Below are positions 5,861 through 27,409 of a stretch of 64,000 bases of DNA, piece after piece. Position 1 is the first letter of the stretch, and each line of letters starts with the position of its first letter. The translations under genes were made by a program, and so were the position numbers. The DNA is from Micromonospora nigra. Its GTDB lineage: Bacteria; Actinomycetota; Actinomycetes; Mycobacteriales; Micromonosporaceae. The stretch lies in contig NZ_FMHT01000003.1 of the NCBI RefSeq assembly GCF_900091585.1, positions 3,215,501-3,279,500 of the forward strand, written 5' to 3'. The notes beneath the pieces were generated by a model. The model was not told the DNA's origin and made no database searches. It saw only the letters and a program-made list of their open reading frames with translations.

Positions 5861-7060
5861 TCAGCACACCCCGAGGGCGGCGGCCAACGGAACGATCGTC
5901 GCCGGGGCGTCCGGATGCCGGGCCACCCGGGCGAGCACCTCGCGGGCCGCCGGTCGGTGGCGTACCTCGGCGGGAGCGGTCCGGTCGGCGTCCAGCACCA
6001 TCCGGGCGGCGCCGGCCGGGTCGTCGGCCTGGAGGTGGGCGCGGGCGGCGTCGAGCAGGTGGGCGGCGCGGTGTTCGGCGGGCAGCCACCGCCAGCCGTC
6101 CCGCCCGACCGCCTTCTCGTGCCAGGCCACCGCGTCGCCCGCGTCGCCCAGTTCCACCGCCGCGACCGTGCGGGCCGCCGCGACAGCGGTGGGTCCGAAC
6201 GCGGTCCGGTGGTGGTCGTGGCCGTCGCCCACCCGGGCAGCCAGGTCGGCGGCCTCGTCCATCAGGTCGGCCGTGCCGTGGTCGTCTCCGCTGCGGGCCG
6301 CCGCGAGGGCGGCCTGCACCAGCAGGGTGCCGCACAGCGACAGCTCCGACGGCGGGCCGCCGTCGAGGTCCGGCGGGGCGATCCGGTACGCGGCGGCCCG
6401 CATCGTCGACACCGCCGAGCGCGCCCGGCCGGTGGCGCGCAGCACCTGCCCGAGCTGCACGGCCGCCGCTGCCACCAGCACCCGGTCACCGGTGGCGACG
6501 GCCATCGCCCGGTCGGCGGCCAACCAGGCCAGCTCGGCCTCACCGAGTTTCACCAGCAGCGACGCGGCCACCCGGTAGGTCTCCACCAGCGGCACCCGCC
6601 CCGACCCCGGCTCGCGGGCGAAGCAGCGCTGCGCCCCGATCACCAGATCCGGCAGCACGCCCATCAACTGCGGGTACCGGGCGTGCTGGTAGGTCGTCCA
6701 CGCATGCCCCACGCTGCGGGCCACCTGACCCACGGACGGCACGTCACTGCTGGGCACCCGCCGGCCAAGAGCCGTCTCGTACGTCGACAGGGCCGCCCGG
6801 ACGCGGTCCACGCCCTCGGCCCGTCCGTCCACGAGGGCGGGTTGGGCGTCGCGGCCCAGCAGCACCGCCCGGTCGATCCGCAGGACAGCGGCGATGTCCT
6901 GGAGGGTCGAGACCTTGTCCAGTGACCGGGCACCCCGCTCAACCTTGTCGACCCAGCTCTTGGACTTACCCAGCCGGTCGGCGAACACCTGCTGCGACAT
7001 CCTGCGTCGACCCCGCCAGTACGCCACCCGCCGACCGATCGGCAACAACTCACTACCCAC
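5861..7060 (-). CDS. XRE-family regulator with helical-repeat C-terminus (1 of 3)
   Basis: A 399-residue protein. Residues 8-60 form a Cro/C1-type helix-turn-helix (SQQVFADRLGKSKSWVDKVE). The remaining ~330 residues are Ala-rich helical hairpins resembling TPR units, a layout common in actinobacterial regulators whose ligands are mostly unknown. The GTG at 7060 has GAGGTGG 7 nt upstream. A GGGTAC-N5-GTACCC palindrome lies 78 bp upstream (7138-7154). It is followed without a gap by the small Cys protein. DNA binding is inferred from the fold; the regulated genes are unknown apart from likely autoregulation. Confidence 0.85.
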   Translation of the reverse strand: MGSELLPIGRRVAYWRGRRRMSQQVFADRLGKSKSWVDKVERGARSLDKVSTLQDIAAVLRIDRAVLLGRDAQPALVDGRAEGVDRVRAALSTYETALGRRVPSSDVPSVGQVARSVGHAWTTYQHARYPQLMGVLPDLVIGAQRCFAREPGSGRVPLVETYRVAASLLVKLGEAELAWLAADRAMAVATGDRVLVAAAAVQLGQVLRATGRARSAVSTMRAAAYRIAPPDLDGGPPSELSLCGTLLVQAALAAARSGDDHGTADLMDEAADLAARVGDGHDHHRTAFGPTAVAAARTVAAVELGDAGDAVAWHEKAVGRDGWRWLPAEHRAAHLLDAARAHLQADDPAGAARMVLDADRTAPAEVRHRPAAREVLARVARHPDAPATIVPLAAALGVC

Positions 7061-7137
7061 GACACCACCTCAAGCCGGTACGGCAACTCCCCTAAAGTCG
7101 CTGCCGCATCACGCTAGGTAGTGCCTTCGTGGTGGTG

Positions 7138-7154
7138 GGGTACACGGCGTACCC
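7138..7154. promoter_or_regulatory. Candidate operator, GGGTAC-N5-GTACCC
   Basis: Inverted repeat with 6-bp arms GGGTAC (7138-7143) and GTACCC (7149-7154) around ACGGC, in the gap upstream of the regulator starting at 7060. The same arms and spacer length recur, with longer arms, upstream of the next XRE gene (8403-8425). The repetition next to paralogous regulators makes an operator likely. Confidence 0.6.
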
Positions 7155-7169
7155 GGTGACGGGGTGTAC

Positions 7170-8384
7170 CTACAGGTCAGTGGCACCGATTCGGCGGGCG
7201 AGGTCGACCGCTTCGGCGCGGATCGCCGCCGGTGCTTCGCGGCACAGCCGGGTGACCATGTCCTGCGCGACCGGTGAGTAGCGGACCGTCTCCGGCGACG
7301 TCGCCTCGGCTCGCCCAAGTAGATGCAGTGTCGCCTCCCGCGCACCCTCCAGATCGGCCGAACGGGCCAACTCCACGAAGTGCCGGCCCCGGCGCTCCGT
7401 CGACGGGATCGACGCCGGGTCCAGGGCATGAGCACGGCGCTGTGCCTCGTCCGGATCGCCCAGGTCCACCGCGCACATCACCGCGTACACGTCGACCAGG
7501 GGCCGGGAAACCCGGGTCCGCAGACCAACGAAGCCGTCGGGCAACGCCCGGTCGACAACCGTACGGGCGGCATCCCAATCCGACCATGCACCCTGGTCGC
7601 CGGTCCGGGCGCGGGTGAGCGCCGCACAGAGATGCAGGTCAGCCAGCATCTCCGCCCACTCGGTGCCGCCATCCGCGACCCGCGGCTCGATCAGTCCGCG
7701 CGCCTGCCGAAGCCGATCCAACGCCTCGTCACCACGGCCGACAGCACGCAACAGGTGTGCTGCGTACCAACTCGCCTGCGCGATGGCCAGCGGATCGTCC
7801 GCGTCCAGGGCGGCGGTCATCCCGCGATCGACGGTGAGCCACACCATCTCCCGGTCGCCATGCCAGGCCAGGTAAGCCTGTGCGAGGTGGTATGCCTGGG
7901 CGAGCAGGGTGAGGCTCGCCCGTCGATCGTCGCCGTTGTGCAGCCGAGTCGCGCGCTGGGTGGCGTCGAGCAGGCCCGGAAGGATCTCGCCCGCCGCCGT
8001 CCGCTGGTGTCGGGACGTGTGCCACGTCTGCCAGGCCGAATCGACCGCGCCACGTAGGTAGTCGGTGCTTTCCGGTTCGCCGTCGATAGTGATGTGCCAG
8101 GCGGTCAGCGCCCGGCGGACGTCGTTGACGGCGGGATGGCTGGCCCGACCGTCAAGGGACAGCGCGACTTCTGGACCGAACAGATCACCGAGATCTCGCA
8201 CCCCGAGGTGTGGAGCCAACTGCTGCGCCGCGCGCAGCGTCAACGATCGGCGACCGTTCTCGATGAACTTCACCGTGGTCGGCGAGAGCCCGCACAATCC
8301 GGCGAGCCGCTCACGGGAGAGGCCAGCGGCACGCCGGAGCCGCTCGACACGCTGACCTGGGGTGGGCTGCTGTTCGCTGGTCAC
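7170..8384 (-). CDS. XRE-family regulator with helical-repeat C-terminus (2 of 3)
   Basis: About 404 residues. The N-terminal helix-turn-helix (LSRERLAGLCGLSPTTVKFI) is followed by ~330 residues of TPR-like helices. The GTG at 8384 is preferred because GAGG (8394-8397) lies 8 nt upstream; the in-frame GTG at 8393 abuts that site. A perfect palindrome sits 19 bp upstream (8403-8425), where it would overlap the promoter or transcription start, so negative autoregulation is plausible. It is paralogous in layout, not closely in sequence, to its two neighbours. Confidence 0.85.
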   Translation of the reverse strand: MTSEQQPTPGQRVERLRRAAGLSRERLAGLCGLSPTTVKFIENGRRSLTLRAAQQLAPHLGVRDLGDLFGPEVALSLDGRASHPAVNDVRRALTAWHITIDGEPESTDYLRGAVDSAWQTWHTSRHQRTAAGEILPGLLDATQRATRLHNGDDRRASLTLLAQAYHLAQAYLAWHGDREMVWLTVDRGMTAALDADDPLAIAQASWYAAHLLRAVGRGDEALDRLRQARGLIEPRVADGGTEWAEMLADLHLCAALTRARTGDQGAWSDWDAARTVVDRALPDGFVGLRTRVSRPLVDVYAVMCAVDLGDPDEAQRRAHALDPASIPSTERRGRHFVELARSADLEGAREATLHLLGRAEATSPETVRYSPVAQDMVTRLCREAPAAIRAEAVDLARRIGATDL

Positions 8385-21267: not shown

Positions 21268-21335
21268 CTTCGCTGCTGTGCCGCGCCTGATCACGGTTTC
21301 CAAAGCCCGATCAGGGCCGCTGACCTGGGGTGGAG

Positions 21336-21407
21336 TGGGCCGCCAGGGACTCGAACCCTGAACCTATGGATTAAAAGTCCACAGCTCTGCCATTGAGCTA
21401 GCGGCCC
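21336..21407 (-). tRNA. tRNA-Lys (UUU)
   Basis: Reading leftward from 21407: a 7-bp acceptor stem GGGCCGC with GCGGCCC, a four-bp D stem, an anticodon stem GTGGA/TCCAT with loop CTTTTAA (anticodon TTT), and a T arm CAGGG-TTCGAGT-CCCTG. The gene is 72 nt, with discriminator A and no encoded CCA. The integrase relic adjoins its 3' end. Confidence 0.96.
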
Positions 21408-21749
21408 GCTGGGCCATCAGGCTACCCGATCGTCCGCCTTCGGGTTGTGATGTGGTCCGCCCCGCTGCACACCGCCCGCGTACGGATGAATCGGCCGGAG
21501 CCTTGCTGGCTCAGGCCCCGTGCCGGCAGCTGTGCCCGGATCTGCCTTCCCCGAGGCCGGGCAGCACAGATGTGACCCGGCCGACGGGTTGCCCTTCAGT
21601 GCCCGAGCACACGTGTCCGATAGACGACGTCCTGGGTTGACAACCACTCCGCGCCGGTGACGCGTGAGCAGGGTGCGGTGGTGCCGCCGGCGATGCCCGA
21701 CAGTGCCGCCGGCGACCCGACCCGTACCACCTCGTCAGGGAGAACAACC
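21408..21749. other. Intergenic region upstream of the flavoprotein gene
   Basis: This holds the tRNA-Lys promoter on the minus strand and the leader of the flavoprotein gene on the plus strand (AGGGAG before 21750). No further gene is supported. Confidence 0.5.
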
Positions 21750-22913
21750 ATGAGTCAGCCCGCCGACCTCCTCCGCGCAGCCCGTGAGCTCGCGGCCACC
21801 ATCACCGCTCGCGCCCCGGAACTCGACGCCGACCGCGGCCTGCCCGCCGACCTGCTCGCCCAGCTGAAGAAGGCAGGGTTCTTCCGGATGTTCGTGCCGC
21901 GCAGCCACCACGGCCACGAGGTCGACCTGCGTGTCGGACTCGACGTGTTGGAGACGCTGGCGCGTGCCGACGCCTCGACCGGCTGGACTGTCATGATCGG
22001 ATCCGAGACGCCGCACCTGGTGGCGCTGCTGGAGCGCGAGCAGTTCGACAAGTTCTATGCCAACGGCCCCGACGTGATCATCGCCGGCGGCTTCAACGCC
22101 CAGGGCGTTGCCGAGGTCGTCGACGGCGGCTACGCGGTGAACGGCACGTGGGCATTCGCCAGCGGCAGCGCGCATGCTGACTGGATCTTCGGTAACTGCG
22201 TGGTGACCCGCGACGGCCAGCCGCTGCCCGGCGCGACCGAAGGAGTGCCGCACCTGCGCTCGATGCTCGTGCCCGCCGGGCAGGCGCAGATCATCGACAC
22301 CTGGCACGTCCTGGGCCTGCGCGGCACCGGCAGCAACGACGTGGCGATCTCGAACGTACGGGTCCCGGCCGAGCACACCTTCGACCTGTTCACCGGCGCG
22401 CCGTGCGTGCCCGGTCCCGGCTTCGTCGCCCCGCTGGTGCACTTCGTGCTGCATCTCGGCGCGGTGGCCGTCGGCATCGCGCAGGGCGCGCTGGACGAGA
22501 CCGTGGCGATGGTCAACTCTGGCAAGCAGCGGCTGTACGCCAAGAACGGGCTCAAGGACTCGCCGGTGTTCCACGTCCACCTGGGACGGGCCGAGCTGGA
22601 CGTTCGAGCCGCCCGGGCTCTGCTGCACGAGGTGGCCGACGAGGTGTGGGCAGCTTGCGAGCACGACCCGGCCGCGCTCACCGAGCTGGCCCCGCGTGCC
22701 TCGGCGACGCTGGCCTGGGTGACCGAAGCCGCTGTGCGGGCCGTTGACACCTGCTACCGCAGCGGCGGTGGCGCAGTGGCCCGCAACTCGTCGGCGATCC
22801 AGCGCCGGTTCCGTGACATGCACACCTTCAGCCAGCACGCGGCGGTGGCGGAGGGCTGGCTGGCCACCGGCGGAGCGGCCCTGCTGGGTCAGCCGCAGGG
22901 CCTGGCGTACTGA
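21750..22913 (+). CDS. Acyl-CoA dehydrogenase-like flavin monooxygenase/hydroxylase
   Basis: A 387-residue protein of the acyl-CoA dehydrogenase fold, closest in pattern to the flavin-dependent hydroxylase branch (HpaB/HsaA/DszC-like). Visible blocks are FFRMFVPRSHHGHEVD, ASTGWTVMIGS, AFASGSAHADWIFGNCV, WHVLGLRGTGSND and the C-terminal SAIQRRFRDMHTFSQHA, a His-rich end typical of that branch. The catalytic Glu of true acyl-CoA dehydrogenases is not apparent. Such enzymes need a separate flavin reductase, which is not adjacent. The ATG at 21750 follows AGGGAG. It lies intact between the integrase and DISARM relics and could be cargo. Confidence 0.85.
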   Translation: MSQPADLLRAARELAATITARAPELDADRGLPADLLAQLKKAGFFRMFVPRSHHGHEVDLRVGLDVLETLARADASTGWTVMIGSETPHLVALLEREQFDKFYANGPDVIIAGGFNAQGVAEVVDGGYAVNGTWAFASGSAHADWIFGNCVVTRDGQPLPGATEGVPHLRSMLVPAGQAQIIDTWHVLGLRGTGSNDVAISNVRVPAEHTFDLFTGAPCVPGPGFVAPLVHFVLHLGAVAVGIAQGALDETVAMVNSGKQRLYAKNGLKDSPVFHVHLGRAELDVRAARALLHEVADEVWAACEHDPAALTELAPRASATLAWVTEAAVRAVDTCYRSGGGAVARNSSAIQRRFRDMHTFSQHAAVAEGWLATGGAALLGQPQGLAY

Positions 22914-22921
22914 GGGCTTCC

Positions 22922-23520
22922 ACCTCGGCTGAGCTTTCGAACCAGATCGACGTGTACGCCCCGGAGGGCCGCGGACCGCAGCTCGGCTACCACCTCGGCG
23001 ACCCGTACGCGGCGAAGCTCGCCACGAGCAGTCTGCTCCGGGCCGCCCGGATGACCTCGACGATCACGGAACTGGTCAGCCCTACGGGCACGGCTGCACT
23101 GGTCGGCCCGCTGACTGCCAGCTCGGTGCGCCTCGCGTCCGCGCGCCCGTACAGGAGGGCTGCGCTGAGCAGGGCGAGAGCGACCGCTGGGCCGGGAAGG
23201 TCGGGTGCCTCGGTCGAGGTGGTGGTTGCCCCGCTCGCAGAAGGTCCGCCCTGGTCCGGCTGGCGACGGCGTACCGCGATGGTGAAGGCGGTGAGGCCGA
23301 GGTACGCCTCGGTCTTGCCGCCACCGGTGGGGAACCAGAGGAGGTCGGCGACGGCCTGGCCGGCGTCGTCACCCCGCTCCCGGTGCCGGGACGTCGGGTC
23401 GGGGGAGGCGAGCAGCGTGATGCCGGCGGCGATCCGGTCGGCCGCCTCACGGTCGTCGCGTAACGCCTCGCGCACCCGGCGGCGATAGCCGTCGAGCCGT
23501 CGTTCCGGAGAACCCGATGT
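22922..23520 (-). pseudogene. Collapsed DISARM defence locus: drmA fragment fused to drmC fragment
   Basis: Reading leftward, the first part matches the DISARM helicase DrmA: RLDGYRRRVREALRDDREAA, then DRIAAGITLLASPDP, then an internal loss, then the Walker A block LLWFPTGGGKTEAYLGLTAF (about 23294-23338). The frame then passes into a phospholipase-D-like segment resembling the DrmC N-terminus (ELAVSGPTSAAVP, VIVEVIRAARSRLLVASFAAY). That frame stops at 22987, but a frameshift near 22997-23012 continues the match (VAEVVAELRSAALRGVHVDL). drmB is absent between them. The order drmA-(drmB)-drmC on one strand fits a DISARM operon shrunk by deletion. No functional system remains. Confidence 0.72.
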
Positions 23521-23580
23521 CCACCCTGTCCGGTCAGCGCGGCAGGTTGAATCACCGGCGCGGATGGGTAAACGGGCGAC

Positions 23581-23781
23581 ATGACTGAGCTGCCGACGAA
23601 CATTCTGACGGACGCTGGCTTCACGGCTGACGAGGCCGATGACATCGTTCAAGGCTTGGTGCAAGGTATTGACCTGCATCAAGACACGCAGCGCACACAC
23701 TCCGTCAACATCGACGAACTCTCCCCAGAGAAGAAGGAGGCGCTCGAGCGGTTCAACATGGCTGTCGCTGCGGACCGCTGA
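23581..23781 (+). CDS. Small acidic protein, unknown
   Basis: A 66-residue product (start ATG at 23581; MTELPTNILTDAGF, then ADEADDIVQGLVQ, then a helical, acidic C-terminus). Codon third positions are far less GC-biased than in neighbouring genes, which suggests recent acquisition. No family is recognised; size and charge would suit an antitoxin, anti-restriction or peptide-type product. It ends 9 nt before a strong hairpin. It interrupts the wreckage zone and appears intact. Confidence 0.5.
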   Translation: MTELPTNILTDAGFTADEADDIVQGLVQGIDLHQDTQRTHSVNIDELSPEKKEALERFNMAVAADR

Positions 23782-23790
23782 GACGAGCAC

Positions 23791-23837
23791 CGACCGGCGT
23801 CCCGACGCGTGCTCAATGATTGTCGGGACGCCGGTCG
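23791..23837. terminator. Bidirectional hairpin between convergent genes
   Basis: Perfect 16-bp arms 23791-23806 and 23822-23837 with a 15-nt loop. The right arm overlaps the final codons of the leftward fragment ending at 23813, and the left arm follows the stop of the rightward small gene, so it could serve both. Confidence 0.75.
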
Positions 23838-24034
23838 CGCAACGTGGAGTAGCCGGCGTAGTAGCGGCCGAAACCGTAGCCGCCGGCCGCCAGGGTGGCC
23901 AGCGCCCAGGGCCGTAGCCGGTCGCGCAGCTTGTCGGGCGCCAGCCGATCGACCGGCACCCGGAGGACCCCGAGCAGCTCGTACCACTGGTCAGCCGTGC
24001 CGGGGTCGACACCGCGCTGCTCGGCGAGGGAGTG
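23813..24034 (-). pseudogene. C-terminal gene fragment of unknown family
   Basis: A 73-codon open stretch without a start, bounded upstream by an in-frame TAG (24035-24037) and ending at a natural TGA beside a terminator. It reads like real protein: HSLAEQRGVDPGTADQWYEL, then VPVDRLAPDKLRDRLRPWAL, then GGYGFGRYYAGYSTLRD. The family is not recognised. The preserved stop and terminator suggest the 3' end of a once-functional gene cut off by the sequence now carrying the DUF5753 fragment. Confidence 0.5.
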
Positions 24035-24240
24035 CTACGCCAGCAGGTCGGCGGACCGGCCGGGATGAGCGCTCAACTTGATCACCTCGTTTGGCTGGCG
24101 ACCGAGCGGCCATACCAGATCGAGATCCGGTCGTTGCCGTTCTCTGCTGGCGCGCACCCTGCGCTCGACGGCTCCTTTCAGATCCTGTCATCTCCGTCGC
24201 CCAGGTTGCCCGACCTGGTCAGGCAGGAGATGCTGCTCCC
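24017..24240 (+). pseudogene. DUF5753 fragment of an XRE regulator
   Basis: The frame reads LLGEGVLRQQVGGPAGM, SAQLDHLVWLATERP and IEIRSLPFSAGAHPALDGSF. This matches the C-terminal DUF5753 ligand domain that follows a helix-turn-helix in many actinobacterial regulators. The DNA-binding half is missing and the normal continuation after SPRLPDLV is lost. In intact systems such genes often sit beside small DUF397 proteins. This is another piece of the decayed region. Confidence 0.7.
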
Positions 24241-24350
24241 GGCTTCCTCACCGGCCTCAAGGTCGAGTCCGCACGTCAGTCGTCGCCACCTGCCTTCAGA
24301 ACCTCCACGCGGAGCTCTTCCGCCTCGCCGGCGGCTGAGTACCTGGTGCG

Positions 24351-25172
24351 CTATGCCGTCGAGGTGAGGCCGCCGCGCGGTCGGGCGACGTCCTCCTCGG
24401 CGGCCGGTGCGTATCCCTCGTCGACGCTGACCTTGCGGGCGATGATGCCGAGCAGGACGCCGTAGACCACCTTGGAGGTGATGTCGGCGACGGTGTAGGT
24501 GATCTGCCGGGCGACGACGCCGTCGGCGGAGTCCCACATGGCCGGCATCAGGTATGCGCCGGGGTAGAGCATCCAGGAGACCAGCACCAGCCACCACACG
24601 CCCTTGGCGATCGGGCGGGCGGAGGCGGGCAGCCGGCTGAGGTTGCCGAAGATCGTCCGGGCCACCAGCACGAGCAGCAGGACGAAGAACGCGGTGCTGA
24701 CCAGGCCCCAGATCCAGAACGGTGCCGAGCGTTCCACCTCGTAGAACTGGCCCGCGTAGCCGGTGTAGATCATCGCCAGGCCGCCGGCGACGAATAGGAC
24801 CCAGGTGCGGTGGAACGCGCGCCCGGTGATGCCGAGCACCACCAGCAGCTGGATGAGCAGCACCGGCACGTCGATCGACCAGTTCATGTAGCGGTAGCCG
24901 TTGGTGAACAGTGTGTCGCTCTGCACCCACGCGGAGCCGTTCCAGTCGAACGCCTCGGACCAACGTTGGGACAGCACCCACAGCTCGAAGAACGCCGAGA
25001 TCATGACGACCGCGGACAGGGTCGAGGCGAGTTGGTAGCGCCGGTCGGAGCTGTTGCGGGTGAGCAGGAAGTAGACCAGGCCGGCGGCCATCACCGCGTA
25101 GCCGAGCGTCAGCACGTGCGAGACGATCGTGTACTGGTCGACGTTGTAGTCGAACATGTTCTCGAAGTTCAC
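24351..25172 (-). CDS. NDQ-type microbial rhodopsin (light-driven sodium pump)
   Basis: A 273-residue protein with seven membrane helices. Helix C reads RYMNWSIDVPVLLIQ, placing N97, D101 and Q108 at the three positions that define sodium pumps of the KR2 type (N112/D116/Q123 in KR2). Helix G has D230 and the retinal-binding K234 (VADITSKVVYG), as D251/K255 in KR2. Proton-pumping rhodopsins carry D-T-D/E at the helix C sites, so outward Na+ pumping is predicted, with H+ as a possible fallback. The GTG start at 25172 follows a GGGGG stretch. It is divergent from the retinal-forming Blh gene across 55 bp, so the two are probably expressed together. Confidence 0.9.
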   Translation of the reverse strand: MNFENMFDYNVDQYTIVSHVLTLGYAVMAAGLVYFLLTRNSSDRRYQLASTLSAVVMISAFFELWVLSQRWSEAFDWNGSAWVQSDTLFTNGYRYMNWSIDVPVLLIQLLVVLGITGRAFHRTWVLFVAGGLAMIYTGYAGQFYEVERSAPFWIWGLVSTAFFVLLLVLVARTIFGNLSRLPASARPIAKGVWWLVLVSWMLYPGAYLMPAMWDSADGVVARQITYTVADITSKVVYGVLLGIIARKVSVDEGYAPAAEEDVARPRGGLTSTA

Positions 25173-25227
25173 GGTGCCCCCGTCCGACCAGCACTAATAC
25201 CCACAAATCAGGTTATATGGTCCGTGG
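25173..25227. promoter_or_regulatory. Divergent promoter region, rhodopsin and blh
   Basis: A short AT-richer spacer. TTATAT (25213-25218) is a good -10 for the rightward blh gene, 9-10 nt before its GTG, so that message is probably leaderless. On the minus strand TATTAG (about 25194-25199) could serve the rhodopsin gene. No regulator site is recognised. Confidence 0.5.
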
Positions 25228-26202
25228 GTGGGGGTGTGGGCGGATCAGCTTCCCGCCCGGGTCGCCGTCGGCGGCTCCCGGGCACTGGTCGTCGCCGTGC
25301 TCGCCGTCGAACTGGTGGTGCCCGGCGGCTGGGGCGACGCGGACCGGGCCCTGCTGCTGGCCGGGCTCGTCGTCGGTGTCCCGCACGGCGCGCTGGACCA
25401 CCTCGTACCCCGGATCGTGCTCGGCCGGCGGGCACCGCACCCGGCGCTGCTCGCGGCCGGCTACGCCACCCTGGTCGTGGTCGTCTTCCTCGCCTTCCGG
25501 GCGCTGCCCGGCGTCGGTCTGCTGGCCTTCCTGCTGCTGTCCGTCGCCCACTTCGGCACCGGCGAGACCGCCGTGGCCGACCTGCGCGCCGGCCGGCCCC
25601 CGCAGGCTGCCCCGCTCACCGCCGCCGCGTTCGGCGCCACCGTCGTGCTGCTGCCCCTGGCCGCCCACCCGACGGAGGTCGGGCCCCTGGTGGCGGCGCT
25701 GTCCGGGGGTGCCGCCGGCCTGACGCCCGGCCAGGCCCGCGCGGGCGTCGCGGCCGTGCTCACCCTGGCCGCCCTGGCCGGGGTACGCCTCCTGCGGCGC
25801 GGCGACCACGCCGTCGCCGCCGAACTGGCGCTGCTGGTGACCCTGGTGCTGGTGGTGCCGCCGTTGGCGGCGTTCGGGGCGTACTTCGGCGGCTGGCACG
25901 CCCCCCGGCACCTGGCCCGGCTGGTGGCGGCCGACCCGGTCAACGCCGCCGACCTGGCCGCCGGTCGACTGGCCCGCCCGCTGGGGCGGCTCGCCCGGCA
26001 GGCGGCACCGCCCAGCCTGGCCGCGCTCGGGGCGTTGGCCGTGTTCTGGCTCGCCGCCGACTGGCCGGAGTCGGCGGCCACCGCGCTGATGCTCGTCGCC
26101 GCGCTCACCGTGCCGCACGCCCTCGTCGTCGCCGTGCTCGACCGCCGCGCCGGGCCCCCGAGAACCACCCCTCGTGGCAGCCGGGCGGGCGTCGGCTCCT
26201 GA
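25228..26202 (+). CDS. blh: Brp/Blh-family beta-carotene 15,15'-dioxygenase
   Basis: A 324-residue polytopic membrane enzyme that splits beta-carotene into two retinals. Family His motifs are present: VPHGALDH (H53, H58), VAHFGTGE (H108), GGWHAPRHLAR (H224, H228) and a late VPHAL. These ligate the catalytic iron. The GTG at 25228 is used; there is no Shine-Dalgarno sequence and the -10-like TTATAT suggests a leaderless transcript. It is divergent from the rhodopsin gene, the usual partner. No carotenoid genes (crtE/B/I/Y) lie in the window, so the substrate must come from elsewhere in the genome. Confidence 0.9.
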   Translation: MGVWADQLPARVAVGGSRALVVAVLAVELVVPGGWGDADRALLLAGLVVGVPHGALDHLVPRIVLGRRAPHPALLAAGYATLVVVVFLAFRALPGVGLLAFLLLSVAHFGTGETAVADLRAGRPPQAAPLTAAAFGATVVLLPLAAHPTEVGPLVAALSGGAAGLTPGQARAGVAAVLTLAALAGVRLLRRGDHAVAAELALLVTLVLVVPPLAAFGAYFGGWHAPRHLARLVAADPVNAADLAAGRLARPLGRLARQAAPPSLAALGALAVFWLAADWPESAATALMLVAALTVPHALVVAVLDRRAGPPRTTPRGSRAGVGS

Positions 26203-26326
26203 CCGGGCGGAGGTGACCTACCGGGTACGCGCCTTCCGGTCCGCCGCGAAGGCCCTGTCCGCGCTACCGCCCCGGCCGGACGGCGATCGGGCGGTTGGAG
26301 CGCTGCGGACCGGGTACGGGCAGCAC

Positions 26327-27409
26327 ATGCGGATCGTGGTGGTGGGGGCGAGCGGGAACGCGGGGACCGCGCTGGTGCGCCGGCTGCGGCGGGAGCGTGC
26401 GGTGGAGATCGTCGGGGTGGCCCGAAGGCTACCCGGGCAGGATGCCGGGGAACCGTACGACCAGGTGGAATGGCACTCCTGCGACATCGGTGCGCCCGGG
26501 GCGGCCGACCAACTCGCCGGGGTCTTCGCCGGGGCGGACGCGGTGGTGCACCTGGCCTGGCAGATCCAGCCCAGTCACGACCAGCGGGTGCTGCACCGCA
26601 CCAACGTCGGCGGCAGCAACGCCGTCGCCGAGGCGGTGACGCGGGCCCGGGTCCCCGCCCTGGTGTTCGCCTCGTCGGTCGGCGCGTACGCGCCCGGTCC
26701 CAAGGACCATCCGGTCAGCGAACGCTGGCCGGCCACGGGGGTGCCCGGATCGTCGTACAGCCAGGACAAGGCCGAGGTGGAGGCGCTGCTCGACCGGCTG
26801 GAACGGGACCAACCCGACCTGCGGGTCGTGCGGATGCGCCCCGGGCTGATCTTCCAACGGCCGGCGGCCACCGAGATCACCCGGTACTTCCTGGGCCCGT
26901 TCGCGCCGGTCCGCCTGCTGCGGTACGGGCGCATCCCGCTGGTGCCCGCGAACCGGCGGCTGCGGATGCAGGCCGTGCACGCCGACGACGTCGCCGACGC
27001 GTACGCCCGCGCGATTCTGGGCGACGCGCGCGGCGCGTTCAACGTGGCGGCGGACCCGGTGCTGACCCCGGAGCTGGTGGCCAAGCACTTCCACGGCTGG
27101 ACGGTGCCGGTGGCCGCCCCGGTGCTGCGCGCCGCCGCCGCGTTGACCTGGCGGGCCCGCCTCCAGCCCGTCGACGCCGGCTGGGTGGAGCTGGCCCTCA
27201 ACGTGCCGCTGATGTCCAGCGAGCGGGCCGAGACGGAACTGGGCTGGCAGCCGCGCACCGACGCGGTGACGGCCTTGAAGGAGTTGTTCGCCGGCATGGC
27301 CGGGGGCGCCCACACGGCCACCCCGCCGATGACCGCCGCACCCGACCTGCCGGGCCGTCCCGGCGGCCTCGTCAAGGGACGGCTCGCCGGCCACGGCAAC
27401 CCCTACTGA
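26327..27409 (+). CDS. NAD-dependent epimerase/dehydratase family protein
   Basis: A 360-residue extended short-chain dehydrogenase. The N-terminal Rossmann motif is VVVGASGNAGTALVRRL. The catalytic region shows FASSVGAYAPG followed by SSYSQDKAEVE, where the canonical YxxxK is altered to YSQDK, keeping Tyr and Lys spacing. The C-terminal part carries the substrate-side blocks RLRMQAVHADDVADAY and ELGWQPRTDA. Substrate unknown. The ATG at 26327 begins the Rossmann strand; the ribosome-binding site is weak. Confidence 0.88.
   Translation: MRIVVVGASGNAGTALVRRLRRERAVEIVGVARRLPGQDAGEPYDQVEWHSCDIGAPGAADQLAGVFAGADAVVHLAWQIQPSHDQRVLHRTNVGGSNAVAEAVTRARVPALVFASSVGAYAPGPKDHPVSERWPATGVPGSSYSQDKAEVEALLDRLERDQPDLRVVRMRPGLIFQRPAATEITRYFLGPFAPVRLLRYGRIPLVPANRRLRMQAVHADDVADAYARAILGDARGAFNVAADPVLTPELVAKHFHGWTVPVAAPVLRAAAALTWRARLQPVDAGWVELALNVPLMSSERAETELGWQPRTDAVTALKELFAGMAGGAHTATPPMTAAPDLPGRPGGLVKGRLAGHGNPY

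Follow-up and report, generated by a model that had tools for sequence, protein, structure and literature searches.

The rhodopsin-Blh gene pair and its retinal supply

Within a 64,000-nucleotide stretch of the Micromonospora nigra genome, hereafter the window, we identified a cassette of two divergent genes, consisting of an NDQ rhodopsin of sodium-pump type on the reverse strand (24351..25172) and a Brp/Blh beta-carotene 15,15'-dioxygenase of the lineage here designated BLHw on the forward strand (25228..26202). The 55 bp between their start codons (25173..25227) are partly conserved in two sister cassettes, and a scan of positions 24200-26400, which covers actinomycete promoters poorly, returned no sigma-70-like promoter. 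The predicted rhodopsin comprises 273 residues and matches PF01036 at 136.1 bits (cut-off 24.6). Translation from its GTG start yields (M)NFEN, and the pattern MN[FVI]EN opens all nine of its nearest relatives (alignment A1).

Alignment to KR2 of Krokinobacter eikastus (PDB 4xtl) equated N97, D101 and Q108 of the window rhodopsin with the KR2 residues N112, D116 and Q123, and likewise R94 with R109, S59 with S70, D230 with D251 and K234 with K255. The codon of D101, the aspartate of the motif, lies at 24870..24872 on the reverse strand, and N97 and Q108 share helix C with it. The N, D, Q, R, D and K residues were retained in 121/121 aligned rows, comprising the query and 120 matches listed of 1507, one of which is the window's own protein. 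The NDQ motif and the K234/D230 retinal site had been proposed in the initial annotation, and both were confirmed with exact coordinates.

Three further positions distinguish the window protein from KR2, namely E63 (KR2 L74), L67 (KR2 Q78) and T87 (KR2 D102). According to the available portions of PMC11006869, Subgroup 2 of the NDQ rhodopsins is defined by Glu at the KR2 L74 position, with D102 absent or substituted, and its member ErNaR carries Leu at KR2 Q78. The window protein bears all three of these marks. Its E63, encoded at 24984..24986 on the reverse strand, corresponds to ErNaR E64, which that source describes as an additional Schiff-base counterion position. Among the same 121 rows (the query and 120 matches listed of 1507), the position was occupied by Glu in 107, Ile in eight, Gln in five and Ala in one, and Glu was found in all 17 NDQ rhodopsins of Micromonospora. 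By this residue criterion the predicted protein is a NaR of Subgroup 2 and not a new kind. In the 88-row tree presented below, the Truepera row has Ala at this position.

The Blh gene encodes 324 residues and exceeds the cut-offs of both PF15461 (170.1 versus 28 bits) and TIGR03753 (169.4 versus 95.25 bits). H53, H108, H224 and H228 were invariant among 107 rows of at least 280 residues, and H297 was retained in 105 of them, in keeping with the earlier description of a dioxygenase with intact histidine motifs. Upon searching the whole genome (6.36 Mb in three contigs), we found no other Blh match. A second rhodopsin is encoded elsewhere in the genome and, since this is the only Blh found, the one enzyme would serve both. 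The view that the rhodopsin has its own retinal-forming enzyme therefore holds as to the partnership but not as to exclusivity.

A carotenoid cluster (C3:3198164-3204697) was identified approximately 36-41 kb from the cassette, outside the window. It contains idi and crtI, both above NCBIfam cut-offs, together with a crtE-like prenyl synthase gene and a crtB-like SQS_PSY gene, neither of which reaches them; the end of the crtB-like gene is 12.1 kb short of the window and approximately 36 kb away from the rhodopsin gene. One SQS_PSY match was found in the genome (253 bits). A single strong lycopene cyclase match, of the CrtY type, lies 2.9 Mb away (241 bits), above the Pfam cut-off and below that of NCBIfam (94 versus 209.5 bits), while no CarR-type cyclase matched anywhere in the genome. 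Two weak cyclase matches were also detected, which mean little because PF05834 matches in 10/14 control genomes. The statement that no carotenoid genes are nearby is thus correct for the window itself but not for its surroundings, and with the distant cyclase the genome holds crtI, crtE-like, crtB-like and CrtY-type genes. Also at this cluster (locus L005) are a gene for a MerR/B12-binding regulator (1664-2635), whose top NCBIfam match is CarH at 52.6 bits, far under the cut-off, and a photolyase gene beside the carotenoid genes (6686-8197). These perhaps constitute a light-response cluster, possibly acting on the rhodopsins too.

Placement of the two proteins among their relatives

Compared with chains of known structure, the window rhodopsin scored 214.7-220.2 bits against those named sodium-pumping rhodopsins, approximately 212-216 bits against chloride pumps, and 108-121 bits against xanthorhodopsin-type proton pumps. 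The chain of PDB 8qle, which we take to be ErNaR, scored 211.7 bits, versus 220.1 for KR2. The top match, 8jh0 (226.1 bits), was deposited as a xanthorhodopsin, yet its sequence has the NDQ motif. Since chloride pumps score as close as sodium pumps, the sodium-pump assignment rests on the NDQ residues; overall scores set the window rhodopsin apart from proton pumps, and the motif alone sets it apart from chloride pumps. Two other identities were rejected on these grounds: an actinorhodopsin, xanthorhodopsin or other outward proton pump, for which helix C would carry a DTE-type motif where NDQ is found, and a chloride pump, which is ruled out by D101 where NTQ proteins have Thr, overall scores not separating the two classes.

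Phylogenetic reconstruction was performed on 102 rows (93 NDQ and nine NTQ, with two loci of broken frame omitted), and more carefully on the 88 that remained after 14 near-duplicates and long branches were removed. Neither tree contained xanthorhodopsin or actinorhodopsin rows, for which the comparison comes from the PDB scores. In the 88-row tree, the Micromonosporaceae NDQ rows form a single clade (support 100/99) far from the nine NTQ rows, which form one clade of their own joining Hymenobacter and Spirosoma NDQ rows; motif and tree thus agree in placing the predicted pump among NaRs, as first suggested. Adjacent to the Micromonosporaceae clade, with weak support (78/54), are rows of Modestobacter, Blastococcus and Pseudokineococcus. 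Within the clade, the NDQ rhodopsins of cassettes branch outside those of the core locus described below (96/89). Membership of the window NDQ in the core-locus clade, considered as a candidate placement, is at odds with this best tree, although a tree forcing both its row and that of M. phaseoli into this clade was not rejected (p-AU 0.459).

The tree also bears on Subgroup 2 itself. A clade comprising KR2 and rows with Leu or Ile at the L74 position is nested among Glu rows, with three state changes overall, and holding the 53 Glu rows together cost 28.9 log-likelihood units (p-AU 0.041). Given that this test was picked after the tree was seen, we regard it as a hint only that Glu at this position is paraphyletic, in which case Subgroup 2 would not be a clade, nor its residue a simple clade marker.

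The window Blh is not of the resident type. It is 82% identical to that of M. phaseoli and 41-47% identical to those of the Micromonospora core locus. In a quick tree with long branches, BLHw (support 99), represented by four rows of which two are one and the same protein, groups with Geodermatophilus, Blastococcus and metagenomic Blhs, and 20 core-locus rows form a separate clade (100), in a sampling where most non-core rows were found with BLHw as the query, which favours its grouping.

Rhodopsin loci across Micromonospora and the insertion site

To place the cassette in the context of the genus, 160 Micromonospora genomes were surveyed, the window's genome included. Rhodopsins above the cut-off were found in 24 genomes (at E<=0.001 the number is 27, including three below the cut-off) and Blh in 25, namely all 24 with a rhodopsin and one of the other 136. 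By best match, the 40 rhodopsins divide into 17 NDQ and 23 xenorhodopsin-like proteins, the latter at only 48-49% identity in three genomes (G068, G099 and G111). NDQ rhodopsins occur in 17/160 genomes, 16 of which also possess the second kind. Fourteen of the 17 share one organization, in which the NaR gene is divergent from an adjacent xenorhodopsin-like gene, with a different Blh (BLHm) located after the latter; flanking guaA and GMC oxidoreductase genes were identified in 11 of these, and lay outside view in the remaining three (G072, G092 and G119). Seven more genomes lack an NDQ rhodopsin but possess the second rhodopsin with BLHm, and one (G135) has an NDQ rhodopsin and Blh without the second rhodopsin. 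In the window's genome and that of M. phaseoli (G077), only the second rhodopsin is found at the guaA-GMC locus, which lacks both the NDQ and the BLHm genes that flank it elsewhere, and a divergent NDQ-BLHw pair is found at another site. The same pair is present in G135. We infer that the guaA-GMC set represents the older state in this genome.

The one genome with Blh and no rhodopsin above the cut-off (G071) retains a guaA-Blh-GMC arrangement (L153 9744-10553), and its Blh stretch, like that of locus L024, holds one stop as translated. G135 has a partial second Blh match of 54.7 bits (L151 8871-9251), 68 kb from its cassette, which is perhaps a remnant.

NDQ rhodopsins were also found in records of Modestobacter, Blastococcus and Pseudokineococcus. 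Together with their frequency in the genus, and with a Micromonospora NaR expressed as early as 2017 (PMC5531490, in the portions available), this does not bear out the initial annotation as worded, which had called an NDQ pump in such an actinobacterium unusual. Pairing outside the genus was surveyed in 49 genomes drawn from 80 loci, leaving out 10 Micromonosporaceae, nine NTQ and 12 others; the 49 include several MAGs and one locus (L078) whose motif is unconfirmed. A xenorhodopsin-like match at E<=0.001 was present in 14/49, and near-full-length at 42% identity or more in 8/49. NaR-xenorhodopsin pairing was accordingly dismissed as a general rule, being a minority state outside the genus.

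The second rhodopsin of the window's genome (family match C3:2068006-2068653; L001 1498-2196) is an intact gene of 232 residues (147.5 bits), located 1.17 Mb from the cassette between guaA and the GMC oxidoreductase gene, with no Blh adjoining. Among PDB chains it is closest to Anabaena sensory rhodopsin (ASR; 184 bits), followed by a xenorhodopsin (155 bits). An Asp counterion and a cytoplasmic Glu/Asp pair equivalent to PoXeR E35/D216 are present here and in 23/23 of the genus, D216 being the proton acceptor of PoXeR (PMC5118547, available portions), and the protein is without a long Arg-rich tail. The Pro described for XeRs at the BR D212 position (PMC7704677, as far as available), and also found in ASR, is absent, with Ser205 in its place. 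At this position the genus has Ser in 19/23 and Pro in 4/23, and the 120 matches listed of 226 homologues have Ser in 38 and Pro in 82. The protein is xenorhodopsin/ASR-like and a possible H+ importer.

The cassette forms part of an insert of approximately 4.9 kb (21430..26291) between a tRNA-Lys(ttt) gene on the left (21335..21407, reverse strand) and a gene of the NAD-dependent epimerase family on the right (PF01370; 26327..27409, forward strand). Besides the cassette, the insert contains an acyl-CoA dehydrogenase gene and a DISARM remnant with a DrmA piece then a DrmC piece in one frame (22987..24012, reverse strand), the latter part of a wreckage zone. A tyrosine integrase fragment (PF00589; 20635..21267, forward strand) lies on the opposite side of the tRNA gene from the insert. 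Matches to the epimerase gene at 78-85% were found in 20/24 same-genus relatives. The distance from tRNA-Lys(ttt) to this gene is 4.9 kb in the window, 0.8 kb in M. phaseoli, where the cassette is elsewhere, 0.45 kb in G034 and 11.5 kb in G088, and in G140 and G085 no tRNA-Lys was found within the 12.5 kb inspected on the corresponding side of the epimerase gene. Thus, of five relatives inspected at the insertion site, two have a short gap, one a longer gap, and in two the tRNA-Lys was unseen. The acyl-CoA dehydrogenase of the insert is patchy too, because it is matched in 4/24 relatives only (63-65%). The side of the tRNA gene away from the integrase fragment varies among relatives, and the region resembles a variable island adjoining a tRNA gene.

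When positions 10000-45000 of the window were compared with 20 kb around the pair in M. phaseoli and G135 (blastn, E<=1e-10), only the cassette matched. The matched spans in the two genomes were 24357-26150 (86%) and 24361-26150 (76%), and identity falls to background at the ends of the cassette genes. The NDQ-BLHw pair hence occurs in three genomes with unrelated flanks. No mobility gene was found inside the cassette, and no edge repeat was seen by eye. These comparisons suggest that the cassette moved between genomes, and the acquisition by transfer first proposed for it gains support from the insert beside tRNA-Lys and from the recurrence of the pair in two other genomes. A rhodopsin donor outside Micromonosporaceae is not established by them, because the NDQ protein falls beside the resident NDQ clade.

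Proposed function, alternatives and known systems

Taken together, these findings make it probable that the locus is a horizontally acquired two-gene cassette encoding an NDQ-family pump that exports Na+ and a divergent retinal-making Blh, with transport, retinal production, expression and direction of transfer each deduced from sequence and gene content. Host idi, crtE-like, crtB-like and crtI genes and the CrtY-type cyclase would supply beta-carotene, which Blh would cleave to retinal bound at K234. By analogy with KR2 and ErNaR, light would isomerise this retinal and the Schiff-base proton would pass to D101; Na+ would enter from the cytoplasm, be held transiently near N97 and D230, and exit outward. 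E63, D101 and D230 would form the counterion set of Subgroup 2, in which E63 may keep D101 deprotonated at low pH.

The rhodopsin might instead act mainly as a proton pump in its native habitat, with an ordinary role in light-driven proton motive force, given that KR2-type NDQ pumps move H+ when Na+ is absent (PMC9728251, in the sections available). We consider this unlikely, as E63 belongs to the Subgroup 2 residue set and the proton currents of ErNaR were negligible even when the internal pH was 5 (PMC11006869, available sections). A comparably small chance is given to a history without transfer, in which a resident NaR was relocated within the genome and Blh was lost and then regained. The position of the window NDQ in the Micromonosporaceae clade, adjoining the resident proteins, and the unrejected placement inside the core-locus clade would accord with such a relocation, but it must contend with the low identity between the window Blh and the core-locus Blhs, with the separation of their clades, a split that the sampling favours, and with the unrelated flanks in three genomes.

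That the pair is decaying or silent within the island seems very improbable: both reading frames are open with catalytic residues retained, and the genome's only Blh is in the cassette while the second rhodopsin remains intact, against which stand the integrase fragment and DISARM remnants nearby and the promoter scan noted above. Beyond the acquired Na+ pump and Blh favoured here, a broader reading, to which we attach only a slight probability, is that NaR (Na+ out) and the xenorhodopsin-like protein (H+ in), served by one Blh, together perform near-electroneutral light-driven Na+/H+ exchange, and that selection has kept the pairing. This reading draws on the observation that NaR and Blh are gone from the usual locus and a foreign-looking pair is found elsewhere, while the H+ half has stayed. 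Such a paired light engine, if real, would have little effect on membrane potential.

Light-driven Na+ pumps, as predicted here, are a patchy trait of a large antibiotic-producing genus (17/160 genomes), and in some genomes NaR is carried by a small gene pair that seems to have changed place. The genus therefore offers a natural series, in which the rhodopsins are side by side in 14 genomes and apart in two, the second occurs without NaR in seven and NaR without the second in one, and through which one may test what keeps a Na+ exporter together with a possible H+ importer. Among the open-licence papers searched, we found neither the divergent NaR/xenorhodopsin locus nor the separate NaR-Blh pair of Micromonospora.

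Several known systems share features with the one described here. The NaR of Micromonospora sp. CNB 394, named MNaR in PMC10743670 and expressed in mammalian cells in 2017, gave a small photocurrent of only 1-2 pA, as did KR2 under that condition (PMC5531490); in the portions of these sources available, it shares genus and NDQ type with the window rhodopsin, and its gene neighbours go undescribed. Because Glu occupies the L74 position in 17/17 NDQ rhodopsins of the genus, it probably carries this residue as well, and would be a second earlier-studied Subgroup 2 member beside SrNaR, given as the only one in the available text of PMC11006869. ErNaR (Erythrobacter sp. HL-111) resembles the window rhodopsin in its NDQ motif, Glu at L74, Leu at Q78 and loss of D102, and its Na+ pumping is barely pH-dependent (PMC11006869, available sections). 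In the 88-row tree, however, the rows of Erythrobacter and Aurantiacibacter fall with those of Acidimicrobiia and not with Micromonospora.

For M. coxensis, M. echinofusca, M. halophytica and M. siamensis, PMC5765111 lists genes named 'proteorhodopsin' and 'sensory rhodopsin II' together with carotenoid genes, and since both gene names appear there, the presence of two rhodopsin genes in one Micromonospora strain may have been published before under different names; an NDQ motif, a sodium pump, a xenorhodopsin and a shared locus go unnamed in the available parts of that source. Parvularcula oceani possesses NaR, ClR and XeR, seemingly without an outward proton pump (PMC5118547, available portions), and so provides a precedent for NaR/XeR co-occurrence, with a chloride pump besides. 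Its PoXeR resembles the second rhodopsin in the Asp counterion, the acceptor Asp D216, the E35 equivalent and the lack of an Arg-rich tail, and differs from it at the position of Ser205, which is Pro in XeRs and ASR and D212 in BR. The pump type is already known in Micromonospora; new, relative to these systems, are the layout of the NaR/xenorhodopsin locus and the displaced NaR-Blh pair.
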